IMG/VR virus record: IMGVR_UViG_3300030419_001570
Location: 1-49,690 of that record
Strand: one strand, 5' to 3'
DNA from: a virus
Length of the DNA stretch: 49,690 nt
The notes under the pieces were generated by a model, which was not told the DNA's origin, did not search any database, and was given only the letters and a program-made list of their open reading frames with translations. This document shows positions 4,972-30,743 of the stretch, piece after piece; position 1 is the first letter of the stretch; each line of letters starts with the position of its first letter. The position numbers and the translations under genes are program-made.

Positions 4972-5996
4972 TGGGAATGTATGACGACATATTAAAACAA
5001 ATGCAAGGCAGTTTTATGCAAAATAATCCAAAAATGTTTGGAAAGCCAGCAGGGTTTAGTGACCCTAGATTTAATTTTAATAATCAAAATTTTTCTATGA
5101 ATAGAGGAGACCCTGATGTTAAACCTGGTGGCGGAGGCTCTGGTGAAACAGGTGGCGGAGGTCAAGGAGATGGAAGTCCTGGTGGCGGTGGAAGTGGAAA
5201 TGGAGATAATAACCAAAACACTAATAACAATCTTTTAGGTTCTACTAATTATGGAGGAAGTTTTACTTCTACATTTAGTACAATGTCAGATACTCTATCA
5301 GGAGCAGGTCTGGAAGGCTTTTTATTTAGAGACCCTGGTTCACATTGGGGATTTGGTGCTGGTAGTGGTTATGAAGATTATTTTCAAACGTTTGATACTG
5401 CTGCATATCAAGCAAGTATGGAAGCATTAAAAGAATTAGAAGCAAGAAGATTTACTAATATTGGTCAACAATATGAATATGGAACAGAAGGTTTACAAGC
5501 TGGATTGGAAGAAGCATTGCTTGATTTAGAAGGTAAAGAGTCTATATCAGGTCTTTATTCTGGAAGAGGTGCAGAAAGAAGACGTATGGCAAGAGAAATT
5601 GGAGGACTTAAAATGGATGAACTTGGAAGAAAAACCCAAGCTCAATATTCAGATGTACAAAGAGAAATTGGACAGCATATAGGTACATTAGAAGGAACTC
5701 TAGTTGATTACCTAACAAGACAATCTAATATTGCTCTTTCGTTAGAACAAGCAGATGCAGATAAAATGGAAGCAGGAGGAGAAGCTTCGTCAACTTGGGC
5801 AAATCAACCTAGAGGTAACTCTATGACAGCTGAACAGCTTTCTGGATATAATATATTTGGAGACTTAACAAATGGTCAAGCTGCTTGGTCAGAATTTGTT
5901 GCAACTGCTCATACAAATTTAAATGAAAGTCAATTAAATGAATTAGCTCAATCAATTTATGATAGCTATCAAAGACAAGAAGAGGAGACAGTATAA
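4971..5996 (+). CDS. Internal/tail virion protein with Gly-rich linker (341 aa)
   Basis: ATG overlaps the previous stop. Residues about 44-82 are an almost pure Gly/Ser/Asn linker (PDVKPGGGGSGETGGGGQGD and onward), followed by Ser/Thr-rich and then helical segments. The C-terminal half (FTNIGQQYEYGTEGLQAGLE, EIGGLKMDELGRKTQAQYSD) is alpha-helical with coiled-coil character. It is coupled to the 626-residue gene by a TAATG overlap. A structural role in the ejectosome or tail is inferred; no homolog was identified. Confidence 0.55.
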   Translation: MGMYDDILKQMQGSFMQNNPKMFGKPAGFSDPRFNFNNQNFSMNRGDPDVKPGGGGSGETGGGGQGDGSPGGGGSGNGDNNQNTNNNLLGSTNYGGSFTSTFSTMSDTLSGAGLEGFLFRDPGSHWGFGAGSGYEDYFQTFDTAAYQASMEALKELEARRFTNIGQQYEYGTEGLQAGLEEALLDLEGKESISGLYSGRGAERRRMAREIGGLKMDELGRKTQAQYSDVQREIGQHIGTLEGTLVDYLTRQSNIALSLEQADADKMEAGGEASSTWANQPRGNSMTAEQLSGYNIFGDLTNGQAAWSEFVATAHTNLNESQLNELAQSIYDSYQRQEEETV

Positions 5997-19653: not shown

Positions 19654-19899
19654 TTATAAATCTAATTTACTTAGTTTTTTGTCCACTGCTTCTTTCTCGT
19701 AATCAGGTATATACTGAAAATAGTCTGAATATATTTCATATGCTTTTCTATACCTTTCATATTTTGAAAAGAATTTATCTACTTCGCTTGTAAGCCTTGC
19801 ATTTTCTTCTTCAAGTTTTTCTAGATATAACAGTAGTTTATCTAATTCGCTATCTATCTTTTTAATTAATTTATAACTTTCACTTGTCGCTAACTTCAT
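19654..19899 (-). CDS. Coiled-coil hypothetical protein (81 aa)
   Basis: Start at 19899 follows AAGGAG and overlaps the gene before by 20 bases. Residues 10-60 form a strong heptad pattern (IDSELDKLLLYLEKLEEENA), ending in a Tyr-rich segment (YEIYSDYFQYIPDYEKEA). No DNA-binding or catalytic motif was recognised. It is the last of seven overlapping small genes that look like host-takeover or accessory functions. Confidence 0.55.
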   Translation of the reverse strand: MKLATSESYKLIKKIDSELDKLLLYLEKLEEENARLTSEVDKFFSKYERYRKAYEIYSDYFQYIPDYEKEAVDKKLSKLDL

Positions 19900-21753: not shown

Positions 21754-23517
21754 CTAAATAACCAACAAGTAATCTTCCATATCAGACATATTTATGTCTG
21801 ACGGTATAGTGTAATCGTGGTTATCATCGTATCCGTCGAGTATGTTTACCGTCGGAATTCTACTCTTTAAGAGTAAATCCTTATGAGTAAATTTTCCGTC
21901 TTTAAACTCTATGAAAGACGAAACATCACGAAAGCAACTTTCAATGTGATTTCCGTCTGATTGTGAATTTAGTAATTCCACACTTCGCACACGATAAAAA
22001 TCTTGTGTTTCTGTCGGAATTTCAAAGTATTCAAACATAGAGTTAATAGTCATACAGGGCTTCCTTAAAGTCTGTTGGTCCTGTATTTGTCGTAATAACG
22101 GAAATATAGAATAGAATTTCTTATCGTCTAATTTAAGTTTACTATTCAATATACTTTCGTCTAAAACATAATCTCCGTCTATTAGTATATGTCCGTCGGC
22201 ATTTCTCTCCTTAGACCTATACTTTGAGTAGTATTTAGTTCGCTCTTCTTCTGACAACAGTTTGTCTATACCTGTGTTCATCAGACTTTTCATCATTTCT
22301 GACTGCCAAAAATCAGAGGTATGTTTATCTCTCATTTCTGTCCTAACCTGATTACCCAAGTCGTAGCACTTATCTATTATGCAACCCCATAGACTTGACC
22401 AATGTATCATCTTTTCGGCATTTAATGTGCCTGAATGATACCTCAACTCTATGCCTTGATTTGCTCCGAAATGACTGTGCAAGTTAAGTCCGTGATATCG
22501 TTTTGAATGATATCTGTCAAAATTAAATGCACCATCGTCGTAATAGAAGTCTACGAAACTATCTCTGTCGTAAATATTACGAAAAGCATATAGTGGTTGT
22601 GAGACGGGTCTACACCAACTGCTACTTCTTCTTGACGACGGAACCCAACTAAAAATATGAGGTTCTATAACTTTCGTCATCAAAGTTAAGACGGCAAAGT
22701 GATACCAGTCGTAATCTCGGCTATCAATATGTAAATGATAACCACACTTACGACTAATGTAAGCACCAAAGTCGCTTTTTAAGCATTCAGTCACAGTTTT
22801 TAAGTCCTGTTCTAAGACACCGTTTCGTCGTGGTTCGAGTATTATCTCGCTTCCGTGACTATGGTCTCCACCTGTAATAGAACCGTCGTAAGTAACCCTT
22901 ACTCCTGCTCTATGGTCTCGGTAAGCCAAGCCATCCATTCGTCTATCGCTTGATAGACGAGCCGTAACATATTCCTGTAATCCGACATTATCTACATTGC
23001 TGTTGAAATTTGTCTCAATCTCAACTCCCATTGCTCGTTTTGTCTTAATTACAGGATTTAAGTCGTTGCGAGGATTTTCAAGGTTATCATCGCTTCTATA
23101 TTGAAGCCCGACGAAGCCATGATGGGTTTGGACATATTCATTACTATGCACCTCCCATTCCAAGTCTTCGACACAACCTGAATTATACTCGTGGCAGTTT
23201 TCACACATATTGTCGCCTGTTCTGTCGTCATAATGCATATCATCTTCGTGATATGTCTCTGAACATACATCGCATTCGCGATAGTAGTAAGAACAGTCGT
23301 CGCAGACATCTTCGCCTCTGCTATCGACATAAGTCATACTACTTGCCTCACATTCAGAGGAACAGTCATCACAATATCCGTGAAAGTCTGCATGACAATC
23401 GTCGCATCTATGCTCCTCATCGACAGGCGACAGGTATGTGTCTTGTTCATCGAAACTCGACCCACAGCCGTAACACTCGACTAATACTACATTATCTTCT
23501 GTATTTTCTGTCGGCAT
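21754..23517 (-). CDS. Zinc-finger amidoligase (GS-like COOH-NH2 ligase), 587 aa
   Basis: The N-terminal 110 residues hold three LIM- or treble-clef-like zinc units (C15xxC18...C38xxC41; C49xxC52...C72xxC75; C82xxC85...C105xxC108). The catalytic part carries the Amidoligase_2 (PF12224-type) signature: GVEIET at 164-169, DGSI...GSEIIL around 211-227, CGYHLHID at 258-265 and RYHSGTLN near 390. The family is predicted to form amide bonds between a carboxylate and an amine using ATP, like glutamine synthetase and glutamate-cysteine ligase. ATG 23517 (GAGG upstream) follows the amidotransferase stop by one base; an upstream in-frame ATG would overlap that gene by 47. The substrate is unknown: a peptide, cell-wall or capsule component, or protein tag is possible. 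Confidence 0.8.
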   Translation of the reverse strand: MPTENTEDNVVLVECYGCGSSFDEQDTYLSPVDEEHRCDDCHADFHGYCDDCSSECEASSMTYVDSRGEDVCDDCSYYYRECDVCSETYHEDDMHYDDRTGDNMCENCHEYNSGCVEDLEWEVHSNEYVQTHHGFVGLQYRSDDNLENPRNDLNPVIKTKRAMGVEIETNFNSNVDNVGLQEYVTARLSSDRRMDGLAYRDHRAGVRVTYDGSITGGDHSHGSEIILEPRRNGVLEQDLKTVTECLKSDFGAYISRKCGYHLHIDSRDYDWYHFAVLTLMTKVIEPHIFSWVPSSRRSSSWCRPVSQPLYAFRNIYDRDSFVDFYYDDGAFNFDRYHSKRYHGLNLHSHFGANQGIELRYHSGTLNAEKMIHWSSLWGCIIDKCYDLGNQVRTEMRDKHTSDFWQSEMMKSLMNTGIDKLLSEEERTKYYSKYRSKERNADGHILIDGDYVLDESILNSKLKLDDKKFYSIFPLLRQIQDQQTLRKPCMTINSMFEYFEIPTETQDFYRVRSVELLNSQSDGNHIESCFRDVSSFIEFKDGKFTHKDLLLKSRIPTVNILDGYDDNHDYTIPSDINMSDMEDYLLVI

Positions 23518-23518
23518 A

Positions 23519-24592
23519 TTACTTATCCTCTGTGTTGACAGACTGGAACCATAACTCTTCGTCATCTATATCGTCTTCGACTTGGCTATCATACATAGTG
23601 CCACTACAAATTTGATACTCATTAAGTATCTGATTTGACTGATGGTCTATGTAATACCATTCCTCCGACGAAGCATCAAAAAAGTAGTCAGACGGATGTC
23701 CTCCGTATGCTTCTGCCCATTCTATCTGTTCTTGTTTCTCCCACTCAACATTAATAGTTCCGTCGTCCATATACATATCTTGGTCGTAATTACTATTCGC
23801 CCAATCTATTTGTTTATGGTCGTTGTTATAACTATTTAGTTGCCATTGGTATACTCTACTGTCGTATTTAAACTCGGTCTTTTCTACATTCGTTCTGTCT
23901 GCTCCGAAGCGACGAGTATCAAACTTATAAAGATTATTCTTATTAAGTTCATAGATACTTGCTTCGTCTATTCCTGCTTGTTTTAGACCTGCTTCAATAA
24001 AGCATTTCTCACTTGCATAGAATAGAGTTTTCAGACTGCCGATGTATGAGACGAAAAGAGGTCTATTACTTTCGCGACATAGATATAAAGTCATCGGGTC
24101 ATCTTTGACAAAACTCAAAGCGAAGTCGCTATCAAAGTGCTTGACGGCTTCTCCTATGTCTTGTGTTTGGTCAATAGACTTGAAGATTAATTGACTATCA
24201 ACAGGACATCTTTTGTCCAATCTTGACTGCATTTCTTCTATGTTATAGACACAACCATTGTGTGCTCCTATAACACCTCCGACTTTAAATGGATGAGCAT
24301 TATCTTTTGTAATTGCTCCTTCTGTCGCAAATCTCGTATGACCTAATAAGATACTCGTTCCCGAAACTAAACTATTTACGGCTTCCGAATAACTTTTGTC
24401 GTCTACGAATTTACTCGACGGCAGTAGAGATTTATGTATTTTTGTTTTACTTCCGACTTGTGCGATACCTGACGAATGTGAACCTCTGCTTTCGCTATCA
24501 ATTGCTATTTGTCGTAGTATCTTCTTGACGAGCTTTAACTCTCTGCTCGTATACTTGGTCGGATGTGTCGCTAATCCATAAATTCCACACAT
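23519..24592 (-). CDS. Class II glutamine amidotransferase (Ntn hydrolase), 357 aa
   Basis: The start is fixed by chemistry: MCGIYGLA places Cys2 as the N-terminal nucleophile after Met removal, with GGAG upstream. Class II motifs follow: RGSHSSGIA at 36-44, HTRFATEGA at 85-93, HNG at 111-113 and D132. They match the glutaminase domain of GlmS or PurF, which releases ammonia from glutamine, or a related thiol peptidase. No synthase domain is attached. The last 100 residues are acidic and aromatic. The gene is immediately followed by the amidoligase, and amidoligases of that family are known to neighbour amidotransferase-like proteins, so the two probably act in one pathway. Upstream is a 254-base spacer with a folded element. 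Confidence 0.88.
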   Translation of the reverse strand: MCGIYGLATHPTKYTSRELKLVKKILRQIAIDSESRGSHSSGIAQVGSKTKIHKSLLPSSKFVDDKSYSEAVNSLVSGTSILLGHTRFATEGAITKDNAHPFKVGGVIGAHNGCVYNIEEMQSRLDKRCPVDSQLIFKSIDQTQDIGEAVKHFDSDFALSFVKDDPMTLYLCRESNRPLFVSYIGSLKTLFYASEKCFIEAGLKQAGIDEASIYELNKNNLYKFDTRRFGADRTNVEKTEFKYDSRVYQWQLNSYNNDHKQIDWANSNYDQDMYMDDGTINVEWEKQEQIEWAEAYGGHPSDYFFDASSEEWYYIDHQSNQILNEYQICSGTMYDSQVEDDIDDEELWFQSVNTEDK

Positions 24593-24676
24593 AACTAAAC
24601 TCCATTTGTTTTGGTTAAACTCTGTCTGTCGGTCGACCTGCCGACAAACCCTATTTGTCTTGCGACAAAATATTTT

Positions 24677-24749
24677 GAGGCACAATTCAAGACGAGTCGC
24701 GGGATACCAATTACGACTAATAATTTGTCTTGCTTCAATGTTGTGCCTC
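24677..24749 (-). ncRNA. Candidate structured RNA element in the amidotransferase leader
   Basis: On the minus strand three nested helices can form: GAGGCACAA with TTGTGCCTC (9 pairs, outer), CAAGAC with GTCTTG (6), and AGTCG with CGACT (5) closing a 14-base loop. Unpaired 8-base segments lie on the 5' side between helices. It lies in the spacer between the upstream gene's stop and the amidotransferase start. A second small hairpin TGTCGG...CCGACA follows nearer the gene. It did not match the glnA glutamine-riboswitch consensus I know. It may be a cis-regulator, a small RNA or a protein-binding site. Confidence 0.45.
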
Positions 24750-24846
24750 TACTATAAAATATCTGTCTGATGTATACCACCATCCAGCATTGTGTTTATG
24801 TTTATATTTGTAAGTGTAAGTCTTAAAGGTATTCATTCCGTCTAAA

Positions 24847-25323
24847 CTATTTCTTTCCGTCTAAACTATCGTATCCGACTCGTTCTATTTTATTAGACGA
24901 ACGGACAGCCCCTCGGGCTGCTCTTGCGACTACATCTGAATACCAGTCTAATCTCTTCTTTTTAGACTCGCCTGCACTTTTCGTCCAATCGTTCCACTCT
25001 GCCCTGTTTATGCGACTGTGTGTCTCAAAACGACTACGAGGTGTGCTTACGACGAATCTATATCCACGACGATGCAATGCCATTGCGACATTCTCTATGT
25101 TCCACAGACAAGACTTCATATCAGGCAATTCCATAGTAGTTCCGTCAGAACTCTTCTGATGGTCTATAATAGTTAATTCCCAATTCTTAGTTCCGTCTGT
25201 TTTAGGAACAATTAGACATTCAATACCTAACGGCAGTTCTTCCATCTTTACGACGGTCTCAACTGTATGCGAATGACCACAAGTCGTGCATTTACATTTG
25301 TGTCGCTGTATTAGTTTTGTCAT
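24847..25323 (-). CDS. Unknown first protein of the amidoligase operon (158 aa)
   Basis: Begins MTKLIQRHKCKCTTCGHSH, a compact Cys/His knuckle (C-x-C-x2-C-x-H), followed by a beta-rich middle (GIECLIVPKTDGTKNWELTI) and a basic, helical C-terminal half rich in Arg, Lys, Ser and Trp (RINRAEWNDWTKSAGESKKK). No enzyme signature was recognised. It shares the operon, the CpG-rich composition and the GACGG motif density of the two downstream genes. This suggests a dedicated partner: a substrate, carrier, regulator or specificity factor for the amidoligase. Its ribosome site is weak (GTGAGAG), and the leader hairpin just upstream may control translation. Confidence 0.6.
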   Translation of the reverse strand: MTKLIQRHKCKCTTCGHSHTVETVVKMEELPLGIECLIVPKTDGTKNWELTIIDHQKSSDGTTMELPDMKSCLWNIENVAMALHRRGYRFVVSTPRSRFETHSRINRAEWNDWTKSAGESKKKRLDWYSDVVARAARGAVRSSNKIERVGYDSLDGKK

Positions 25324-25704: not shown

Positions 25705-25755
25705 AATTTGGTGATTTCTGTTGCCAGGCTCACCACACCCCGAATCTCAGTTCAA

Positions 25756-26321: not shown

Positions 26322-26699
26322 CTAGTCAGTGACTATTTCAAACTTACAAGTTAGGTAAGGTTGACCTTTAACAGGTTTCTTGCCTTCCTTGATAGCTTTT
26401 TGAGTCTGAACTTTGGCAAATTTTACTCCGTCCTTGCGAACTAAAGCATTGAATTTGTCCATACGTTCCTGAATATCGGTTAACATTGAAGCATAACCTT
26501 TATTCATTTCTGATAGTTTCACAAATGATGAAGAAACTCTTGTGCCTTTGACATGGTGGTCAGCAGCATAATTGTCCTTCATAGCTTGGATTTGTTGAGG
26601 AGACAACTTAAGTTGCTTCCCTAACGCGTCCAAGTTAGACATTTGTCTATCATAGACTACTCTTGAAACAGTGCCACCTTTCTTTTTAGCTTCCGCCAT
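26322..26699 (-). CDS. Hypothetical basic helical protein (125 aa)
   Basis: Start at 26699 has AAGGGA about nine bases upstream. The sequence is Lys-rich and mainly helical (SNLDALGKQLKLSPQQIQAM, LTDIQERMDKFNALVRK) with a basic C-terminal section, which may bind nucleic acid. No family was recognised. It is the first leftward gene beyond the 0.8-kb divergent control region and probably expressed early. Confidence 0.6.
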   Translation of the reverse strand: MAEAKKKGGTVSRVVYDRQMSNLDALGKQLKLSPQQIQAMKDNYAADHHVKGTRVSSSFVKLSEMNKGYASMLTDIQERMDKFNALVRKDGVKFAKVQTQKAIKEGKKPVKGQPYLTCKFEIVTD

Positions 26700-27488: not shown

Positions 27489-27797
27489 ATGAAAAATAAA
27501 AGTATGGGTATGAATATAGGAGGACATAATTACATAATAATCCTTGAAGAACTATGCGCTGGAGAACAAGATAAGGTATTGTACGGAAGACATTTAGTAG
27601 AAGATAATATTATTTTAATAAATAGTAAAATAGAAAAATCAAGACAACAAGAAACGTTAATTCACGAAATATTGCATTCAATTCACTATAACTGCGGTTT
27701 AGAGCACGATGAAAGGACAATAGAAGCAATTAGCAATGGTTTATTTCAACTAGGGATAGGAGACTACTTATGGAAAAAAGCACAAAAAGGATATTAA
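27489..27797 (+). CDS. Small HExxH zinc metallopeptidase-like protein (102 aa)
   Basis: Residues about 55-95 read ETLIHEILHSIHYNCGLEHD then ERTIEAISNGLFQLG. HEILH is a zinc HExxH site, and the downstream Glu-containing helix could give the third ligand, as in ImmA/IrrE-type and other small gluzincins. A phage product of this kind could cleave a host or phage repressor. It is the first gene after the early promoter candidate, with a GGGAG site, so it is likely expressed at once on infection. The substrate is unknown. The metal site is clear; the protease role is inference. Confidence 0.65.
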   Translation: MKNKSMGMNIGGHNYIIILEELCAGEQDKVLYGRHLVEDNIILINSKIEKSRQQETLIHEILHSIHYNCGLEHDERTIEAISNGLFQLGIGDYLWKKAQKGY

Positions 27798-28300
27798 AAG
27801 CAAAAAAAGAAGGCGATAAGGATATGGTACAAAAACTACAACAAATAGAAGGTTCATTAAATGACCCGATATATATCAAGGGTAAGGATGATAATGAAAT
27901 CTTAAGAGAAGTTGCAGAAGGTTCCGAAGTAATAACAGATATGCTTCAAAAAACATCTACAGCTGAAGATACGGTAGCTTATATTAAAGAAAACTACCCA
28001 GAAACAGAAGAAAACCTTCAAAAAGTGTTAAACGATATGTATTTAACATTTTGCAGAAAACAATTTGATTACGGACCAGGCAACATTGCTATGGGAACTT
28101 CGCTTAAAAACGAAGAAGAAATCAATATGGCTTTACTAGGAATTATAGTAAGGTTAAATGATAAGATAAACAGACTAGTTAACCTTTCAACGAAACATAA
28201 CTTCGAAGCACAGAACGAACCAATCGAAGACGCGTTTTTAGACACTGCTATATATGCAGCGATGGCGTTAATAGTCAATAACCAGAAATGGGGTAAATAA
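27770..28300 (+). CDS. Nucleotide modification-associated domain 1 (DUF1599/Nmad1)-like protein (176 aa)
   Basis: The C-terminal 100 residues carry the typical layout: FCRKQFDYGPGNIAMG, GIIVRLNDKINRLVNL, EPIEDAFLDTAIYAAMALIV. This is an all-helical domain with Arg, Asp, Lys and Glu residues arranged like MazG/dUTPase-type nucleotide binders. The family has been linked by gene context to modified-nucleotide metabolism in phages; no base-modifying partner was recognised here. The first 70 residues are a charged extension. ATG 27770 has AGGAG at seven bases and overlaps the metallopeptidase gene by 28 bases. Confidence 0.72.
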   Translation: MEKSTKRILKAKKEGDKDMVQKLQQIEGSLNDPIYIKGKDDNEILREVAEGSEVITDMLQKTSTAEDTVAYIKENYPETEENLQKVLNDMYLTFCRKQFDYGPGNIAMGTSLKNEEEINMALLGIIVRLNDKINRLVNLSTKHNFEAQNEPIEDAFLDTAIYAAMALIVNNQKWGK

Positions 28301-30182: not shown

Positions 30183-30348
30183 AGAATGTCTTATTTGTTC
30201 GTCTAAACTCAAAAATACAGGAGTTTTTATTTGGGACATAGATAAAGAGGATTGTACTCAAATTAAATGTATTAACTGTTTAACTATGTATTCAGTTGAT
30301 TTTACTATAACAAATTTGGGCATACCAAGAGAGGTAGGGTATTCATAA
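30121..30348 (+). CDS. Zinc-ribbon protein in the packaging operon (75 aa)
   Basis: ATG at 30121 has AGGAG seven bases upstream although it lies inside the end of the terminase small subunit gene. The product has two Cys pairs (CLICSS, CINCLT) 30 residues apart that form a zinc ribbon, with a basic N-terminus (KGHKSKNFKKLKEIAKNKE). Its stop overlaps the next ATG. It might assist packaging or regulate the terminase, but there is no recognised homolog. Confidence 0.6.
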   Translation: MQFKGHKSKNFKKLKEIAKNKECLICSSKLKNTGVFIWDIDKEDCTQIKCINCLTMYSVDFTITNLGIPREVGYS

Positions 30349-30743
30349 TGAGACTTGCAGTATATGGAACATTAAGAAGAAATTATCCTGATAAGGGAAA
30401 AGTAAAAGGATTTAGTTTGGTTTTTCCAGGACATCAGTCTTTTCCAGCTGTTATTAAAAACGAAAAAGGAAAAGGAGCCGTTGTTGAGTTAATGGATGTT
30501 TCAGATGAAGAACTTAATATGTATGACCAGTATGAAAGTGTAGATACAGGTTTATATATTAGAACAACTGTTGATGTTGATTTAGATAACGGTAATAAAG
30601 AAAAAGCCTGGATATATGTTGCAGGTCCTGTATTATGGCAAAGCTCATCTTCTTTTACAGAAGTTCCAGATGGAGATTGGCATTCAAGAAAAACATTAAC
30701 TATGTTAGACAGGGTTTATGAAAAAGAATTCAAAGAAGCCTGA
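30348..30743 (+). CDS. Gamma-glutamylcyclotransferase (AIG2/GGCT-like), 131 aa
   Basis: YGTLR at residues 6-10 is the substrate-binding signature of the fold. DQYE with Glu63 provides the catalytic acid, and W88-x-Y follows in the expected strand (AWIYV). These enzymes convert gamma-glutamyl amides into 5-oxoproline and a free amine. In this phage the enzyme is an unusual passenger inside the packaging operon, between a zinc ribbon and terminase large subunit. AIG2-type proteins are also reported as genomic neighbours of the amidoligase family encoded at 21754, so it may process or reverse that ligase's product. The catalytic family is clear; the substrate is unknown. Confidence 0.82.
   Translation: MRLAVYGTLRRNYPDKGKVKGFSLVFPGHQSFPAVIKNEKGKGAVVELMDVSDEELNMYDQYESVDTGLYIRTTVDVDLDNGNKEKAWIYVAGPVLWQSSSSFTEVPDGDWHSRKTLTMLDRVYEKEFKEA

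Follow-up and report, generated by a model that had tools for sequence, protein, structure and literature searches.

What do three neighbouring minus-strand genes at positions 21754–25323 of IMG/VR virus record IMGVR_UViG_3300030419_001570 make, and on which molecule do they act? We analysed a stretch of 49,690 bases of this record, hereafter denoted the window, in which the open reading frame listing places a 158-residue protein, a class II glutamine amidotransferase (GAT) and an Amidoligase_2-family ligase within an early-type block; the three genes are co-directional, at the positions given in an earlier note on this DNA. The best explanation, which we consider somewhat probable on the sequence evidence, is that the GAT and the ligase constitute a two-enzyme module that forms amide bonds. 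The features concerned are:

21754..23517 (-), Amidoligase_2-family carboxylate-amine ligase, 587 residues (Pfam PF12224; model match to YbdK)
23194..23475 (-), N-terminal probable zinc region of the ligase, residues 15–108, six CxxC pairs
22396..23040 (-), glutamine synthetase (GS)-like catalytic domain of the ligase, residues 160–374 (Pfam envelope)
21757..22362 (-), C-terminal extension of the ligase, residues 386–587, mostly alpha-helical in the model, highly variable
23519..24592 (-), class II GAT, 357 residues (GATase_6)
24593..24846 (-), leader of the GAT mRNA, strongly folded
24847..25323 (-), 158-residue partner protein, one CxxC, no family match
30348..30743 (+), GGACT/AIG2-family protein (gamma-glutamylamine cyclotransferase type), between terminase genes (PF06094)

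The amidoligase and the amidotransferase

The ligase scores 60.8 bits against Pfam Amidoligase_2 (cut-off 22), a family also matched by 16/16 of its aligned relatives, and contains the motifs GVEIET (residue 164), CGYHLHID (258) and IELRYHSGT (356). Across 50 ligase sequences, E166, E168, E224, H261, H263, E357 and R359, which form ExE, GxE, HxH and ExR motifs, are invariant or at least 97% conserved. An AlphaFold2 model built from 16 sequences has a mean predicted local distance difference test (pLDDT) score of 72, i.e. moderate confidence; its top Foldseek match in the PDB is YbdK (1r8g; probability 0.96, E 3e-3, a weak match), and glutamine synthetases take third and fifth place. As the fold score by itself is weak, assignment as a GS-like carboxylate-amine ligase is supported by the YbdK and GS fold matches and the conserved Glu, His and Arg residues taken together; the weak but top-ranked fold match tentatively groups the protein with the GS-like ligases, rather than outside that fold. 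Neither tblastn nor the genome contigs yielded a phage protein closely related to the ligase, so no cultured-host clue came from there.

The N-terminus of the ligase carries six CxxC pairs (C15/18, 38/41, 49/52, 72/75, 82/85 and 105/108), with eight of the twelve cysteines (C15, 18, 38, 41, 82, 85, 105 and 108) being at least 97% conserved in the same 50 sequences. The pairs are regularly spaced, in a LIM- or zinc-ribbon-like manner, and probably form three zinc units; three such units were given in the earlier note, which also recognised the GVEIET and GYHLHID motifs. The region makes a weak profile match to LIM chains in the PDB (E 0.0016) and Pfam LIM matches only 1/16 ligase relatives; hence we term it LIM- or ribbon-like. 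Cysteine-rich N-termini recur on other amidoligases (those of contig L117, ctUh1700 and MEP401), and are thus not unique to the present ligase.

The GAT scores 57.2 bits against GATase_6 (cut-off 27), starts with MCG, which places a cysteine at position 2, and has GHTRFATEG, GAHNG and PVD motifs. C2, R87, N112, G113 and D132, the residues of the class II glutaminase site, are invariant in 19 relatives; profile scores and motifs thus bear out both earlier family assignments (amidoligase and class II GAT). An N-terminal nucleophile (Ntn) GAT domain (approximately residues 1–225) is followed by a unique C-terminal tail. NCBIfam scores for glmS, purF and asn_synth (47.5, 36.5 and 43.8 bits) lie far below the equivalog cut-offs (418, 350 and 267), no GlmS, PurF or AsnB partner domain is present, and the tail has no Pfam match in 19 relatives. 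A choline-binding-like reading of the tail (from a LytB match) was rejected, as no domain passed alone and Pfam was empty in the same relatives. The GAT stop is separated from the ligase ATG (23517) by one base (TAA-T-ATG), so that the Cys2 start and one-base spacing described previously are both seen; thiol peptidase activity, raised as an option in the same description, gained no support. No membrane-spanning segment was found in the ligase, the GAT or the 158-residue protein.

Conservation of the gene trio

Profile scans identified 69 contigs with a close GAT, all from one uncultured phage group. The ligase directly follows the GAT in 62/62 contigs with enough sequence, its start, as set by mechanical start choice, lying at -131 to +21 nt from the GAT stop, and a homologue of the 158-residue protein is located upstream of the GAT in 64/68. 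Dozens of divergent contigs contain the trio, so it is not a chance arrangement, and the survey of gene neighbourhoods finds it co-conserved within the present phage group. Shared ancestry of this group accounts for part of that co-conservation. Nonetheless, the GAT and ligase are present in 13/13 large related genomes, whereas the small genes at 19880, 20470 and 25756 of the same block have no match in any of them, indicating that retention of the pair reflects more than synteny.

Searches of Pfam and NCBIfam gave no match for the 158-residue protein, and PHROGs none that was significant; its AlphaFold2 model is poor (pLDDT 67), with no fold match found. The protein was previously described as an unrecognised zinc-knuckle partner; the absence of a family match stands, but a zinc knuckle (CCHC, CX2CX4HX4C) is ruled out and the label dropped because the protein has a single conserved CxxC, with only C12 and C15 invariant, instead of four ligands. 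It is probably a dedicated accessory of the GAT and ligase.

Rapid divergence of the ligase around a fixed active site

In the 13 large related genomes the window ligase has a median identity of 37% and the GAT 55%, compared to 81–85% for helicase, RecB-like nuclease, terminase, portal and capsid proteins. A divergence as large as that of the ligase is otherwise confined to tail, other virion and small variable genes. Contigs L108 and L110 are 94–95% identical to the window over a TerL stretch, but the L110 ligase is only 28% identical to that of the window. In close pairs, the ratio of non-synonymous to synonymous substitution rates (dN/dS) is approximately 0.3 for the ligase and 0–0.13 for the DnaQ, TerS, RecB-like and DnaB genes, implying a ligase that is working but fast-changing. 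Positive selection is not claimed, since whole-gene dN/dS is below 1 and the C-terminal windows near or over 1 comprise few substitutions.

The changes are unevenly distributed: the catalytic core is nearly fixed, whilst the zinc region, an insert at residues 176–205 and the C-terminus, which is modelled as helices, are variable (mean match to the window ligase 18% in residues 386–485 and 521–587, and 35% in 486–520). Between L018 and L023 the proportion of synonymous differences (pS) is 0.53–0.55 in the ligase zinc region and 0.03–0.29 outside it, a pattern expected from recombination. The recognition surface should be found at the variable ends. That the ligase is universally kept, yet changes at roughly the pace of tail genes in genomes with a 75–85% identical core, suggests that it takes part directly in a conflict with the host or other phages.

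Proposed function and alternatives

From their sequences and arrangement, the GAT and ligase are likely to act together. The GAT would hydrolyse glutamine and pass ammonia to the ligase (or supply glutamate); the ligase would activate a carboxylate with ATP and then form the amide bond, its zinc region and variable C-terminus probably selecting the target.

A clue to the product comes from the GGACT/AIG2 gene at 30348–30743, which scores 54.8 bits against PF06094 (cut-off 22.8) and whose translation contains VYGTLRR (YGTL loop) and DQYES (D-x-Y-E motif, the Glu of which is catalytic in this family). GGACT enzymes convert gamma-glutamyl amines to 5-oxoproline, and YbdK is a gamma-glutamyl ligase that makes gamma-glutamyl amides. 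The family is present in 17/17 genomes searched (the window and 16/16 related contigs); its presence in all these phages, with YbdK as nearest fold, favours gamma-glutamyl amides as the product, which the pair would make and the GGACT protein would reverse or trim. We regard gamma-glutamyl chemistry as plausible, at somewhat under an even chance. An AIG2 protein had been mentioned in the earlier note as a typical amidoligase neighbour; the genome does contain such a gene, but 6 kb away rather than adjacent.

The target would probably be a host macromolecule under arms-race pressure, either a cytosolic protein or an envelope precursor. A host protein is our tentative first choice and an envelope precursor a possible, if doubtful, second; a small metabolite appears unlikely, and DNA very unlikely.

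Several points weigh against the amide-forming module as outlined. Its co-conservation is seen within one phage group only. With core relatedness removed, ligase and GAT similarities are correlated (partial rho 0.73), but little more than those of another linked gene pair (0.61), such that linkage explains much of the co-variation. The GGACT gene sits beside terminase, outside the operon, and is present in only 4/15 other amidoligase or GAT phage records, so the link may be coincidental. The fold match of the ligase is, as noted, weak and its model only moderate.

The best-surviving alternative, though a doubtful one, is envelope amidation, in which ammonia from glutamine would serve, in the cytosol, to amidate or decorate the peptide precursor of a cell wall or capsule, thereby altering the surface and excluding other phages. 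MurT-GatD and LtsA/AsnB, which carry out amidotransferase and ligase chemistry on muropeptides, provide precedent, and an arms race at the surface fits the rapid diversification of the ligase. However, the zinc region suggests contact with protein or nucleic acid rather than a small muropeptide, and ligase similarity is not correlated with tail-fibre similarity once relatedness is accounted for (partial rho 0.07, p 0.33, 55 pairs); the absence of such a link leaves superinfection exclusion unsupported by this comparison. A passage in PMC10580990 (2023) credits Iyer et al. 2009 with proposing cell-wall modification and superinfection exclusion for the same families, including those of phiEco32; on that account the similar hypothesis in the earlier note is not new.

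It is improbable that the two genes are independent metabolic ones, the GAT freeing glutamate or ammonia for phage growth and the ligase working by itself with an amino acid or polyamine as substrate. GAT family members do work with many different partners, and some amidoligases elsewhere have no GAT annotated beside them, but the strict adjacency, the fast divergence common to both proteins and the retention of the C-terminal GAT tail, though no known synthase domain follows it, argue otherwise. Least probable is protection from restriction, with the two enzymes forming an amide on a modified base. In its favour, a DUF1599-like (‘nucleotide modification associated domain 1’) protein is encoded at 27770–28300 (+), approximately 2.4 kb beyond the trio, with 9/9 aligned homologues matching that family weakly (best E 1e-5), and the neighbourhood is an early-gene one with helicase and exonuclease. 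Against it, the window protein scores below the Pfam cut-off for DUF1599, and among the window proteins scanned none was recognised as the product of a base-modifying hydroxymethylase, kinase, transferase or deazaguanine gene.

Structured RNA in the GAT leader

The 254 nt between the 158-residue gene and the GAT have a predicted minimum free energy of -61.5 kcal/mol (z -3.5), folding better than all 200 shuffles. The corresponding leaders of relatives contain either a covarying three-way-junction RNA or a hammerhead. The former is located approximately 60–180 nt before the GAT ATG in most leaders of contigs L045–L067, L069, L070, L072, L080–L083, L086–L088, L098, L104 and L111–L114; it comprises a long closing stem (7/14 pairs with double changes), a GUCG-loop hairpin and a hairpin with a UCCUUUC loop. 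Across 42 leaders this loop is carried by 16 different 5-bp stems, the stem count being biased by preselection of hairpins for stems of at least 5 bp. On its sequence, the loop could pair with a Shine-Dalgarno AAAGGA and so mask the ribosome site. A covariance model finds one strong copy, ahead of the GAT, in each genome having the RNA; it does not match the leader of the window itself, and no Rfam family, known riboswitches included, fits the leader RNA.

Directly upstream of the GAT, the leaders of the divergent contigs L107 (L107:5903–5972), L108 and L110 (both near 5910–5974 (+)) each contain a hammerhead core, CUGAYGA...GAAAC...GUC, complete with its three stems. These are the only hits in 4.3 million strand-bases, with none in shuffles, and Rfam RAGATH-1 hammerhead and Hammerhead_3 give sub-threshold matches at the same leaders. 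The L103 and L105/L106 leaders resemble looser variants of this core.

The fullest picture that the locus permits, to which we attach a small probability, is a phage cycle of gamma-glutamyl (or amide) tagging and untagging on a host macromolecule. The GAT and zinc-guided ligase would write the tag and the GGACT protein erase it, the recognition ends of the ligase would diversify in an arms race with the host or rival elements, and the structured or self-cleaving RNA leader would control expression.

Neighbouring elements

Between 25333 and 25600 (-) lie six copies of a CGGAAA motif, mostly as CGACGGAAA or CGTCGGAAA and some on GC-rich 16-nt repeats; they separate the 158-residue gene from a hairpin at 25710–25734 (-) with the invariant loop CCUGGCAACAGAAA. 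The latter recurs at L048:3724, L063:3847, L081:2969, L082:4163 and L094:3463 (+), on three different fully paired 5-bp stems in all, and its string is the one with which the tmRNA model for alphaproteobacteria ends (Rfam E 0.0019 for the window copy, short of the cut-off). It is possibly a hint to the host or a tmRNA mimic. A tmRNA gene in the window was rejected, ARAGORN being negative and the Rfam match being a hairpin that resembles one end of the model.

Upstream of the module, a small gene (26322–26699) has the GAT orientation in the window, L022 and L036, and its counterpart is inverted in L016, L017 and L025–L030. Divergently placed beside the module, 27489–27797 (+) encodes a small HEILH-motif metallopeptidase-like protein (DUF6782 below cut-off), found in 13/13 related genomes. 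Many relatives have a GroES-like co-chaperonin gene (IKPLDNRLLV...SGILV, identified by eye) downstream of the amidoligase, for example at L029:10789–11061 and L021:11013–11285.

Comparison with known systems

By fold, the present ligase model most resembles YbdK and other GS-fold carboxylate-amine ligases, 1r8g being the top match; YbdK differs in being cellular, approximately 350 residues long, only about 11% identical and without a zinc region, and we know of no GAT partner for it. GlmS, PurF and AsnB share the GAT domain and catalytic residues with the present GAT, which is without their isomerase, phosphoribosyltransferase or synthetase domain.

The combination of GAT and amidoligase is itself already known from phages, in which genes for a class II GAT, an amidoligase, a COOH-NH2 ligase and an ATP-grasp enzyme are common (PMC3890496, PMC6209634). 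The phiEco32/LUZ24/PA11-type module comprises class II GAT, COOH-NH2 ligase PF14395, Amidoligase_2 and ATP-grasp, sometimes with a class I GAT and AIG2/GGCT. It shares with the window a class II GAT and Amidoligase_2 in one gene cluster, as also described for UFV-P2 (PMC3890496), which has an AIG2/GGCT gene listed too, and TC6 (PMC6209634). Its ligases have approximately 285–385 residues, compared to 587 here with the zinc region and long C-terminus, and the 158-residue partner is an addition of the present group. PF14395 was found neither in the window nor in 14 related contigs, which may be incomplete (the positive control gave 3/3 known phages); ATP-grasp PF14397 is absent from the window, the R2K families matched by a known phage enzyme not having been searched genome-wide.

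Closer in composition are marine OM43 phages, which carry amidoligase and GAT alone (PMC10580990). Genes gp05–gp06 of OM43 phage MEP401 (Zobellviridae) form a two-gene marine version with, as here, a long CxxC-bearing N-terminal extension on the ligase (PMC10580990); it differs in its reversed gene order, weak sequence scores, two CxxC only and lack of a recognised 158-residue partner.

That phage amidoligases modify host molecules is a prediction dating from 2009, and the literature searched held no report of their substrate. What the present group appears to add is a long, zinc-rich ligase that diverges rapidly around a fixed active site, a 158-residue partner, a GGACT protein in all genomes searched, and GAT leaders with structured RNA or hammerheads. 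Reduced to a minimum of two enzymes, equipped with a probable docking domain and available in dozens of alleles diversified by nature, the family makes substrate hunting practical.

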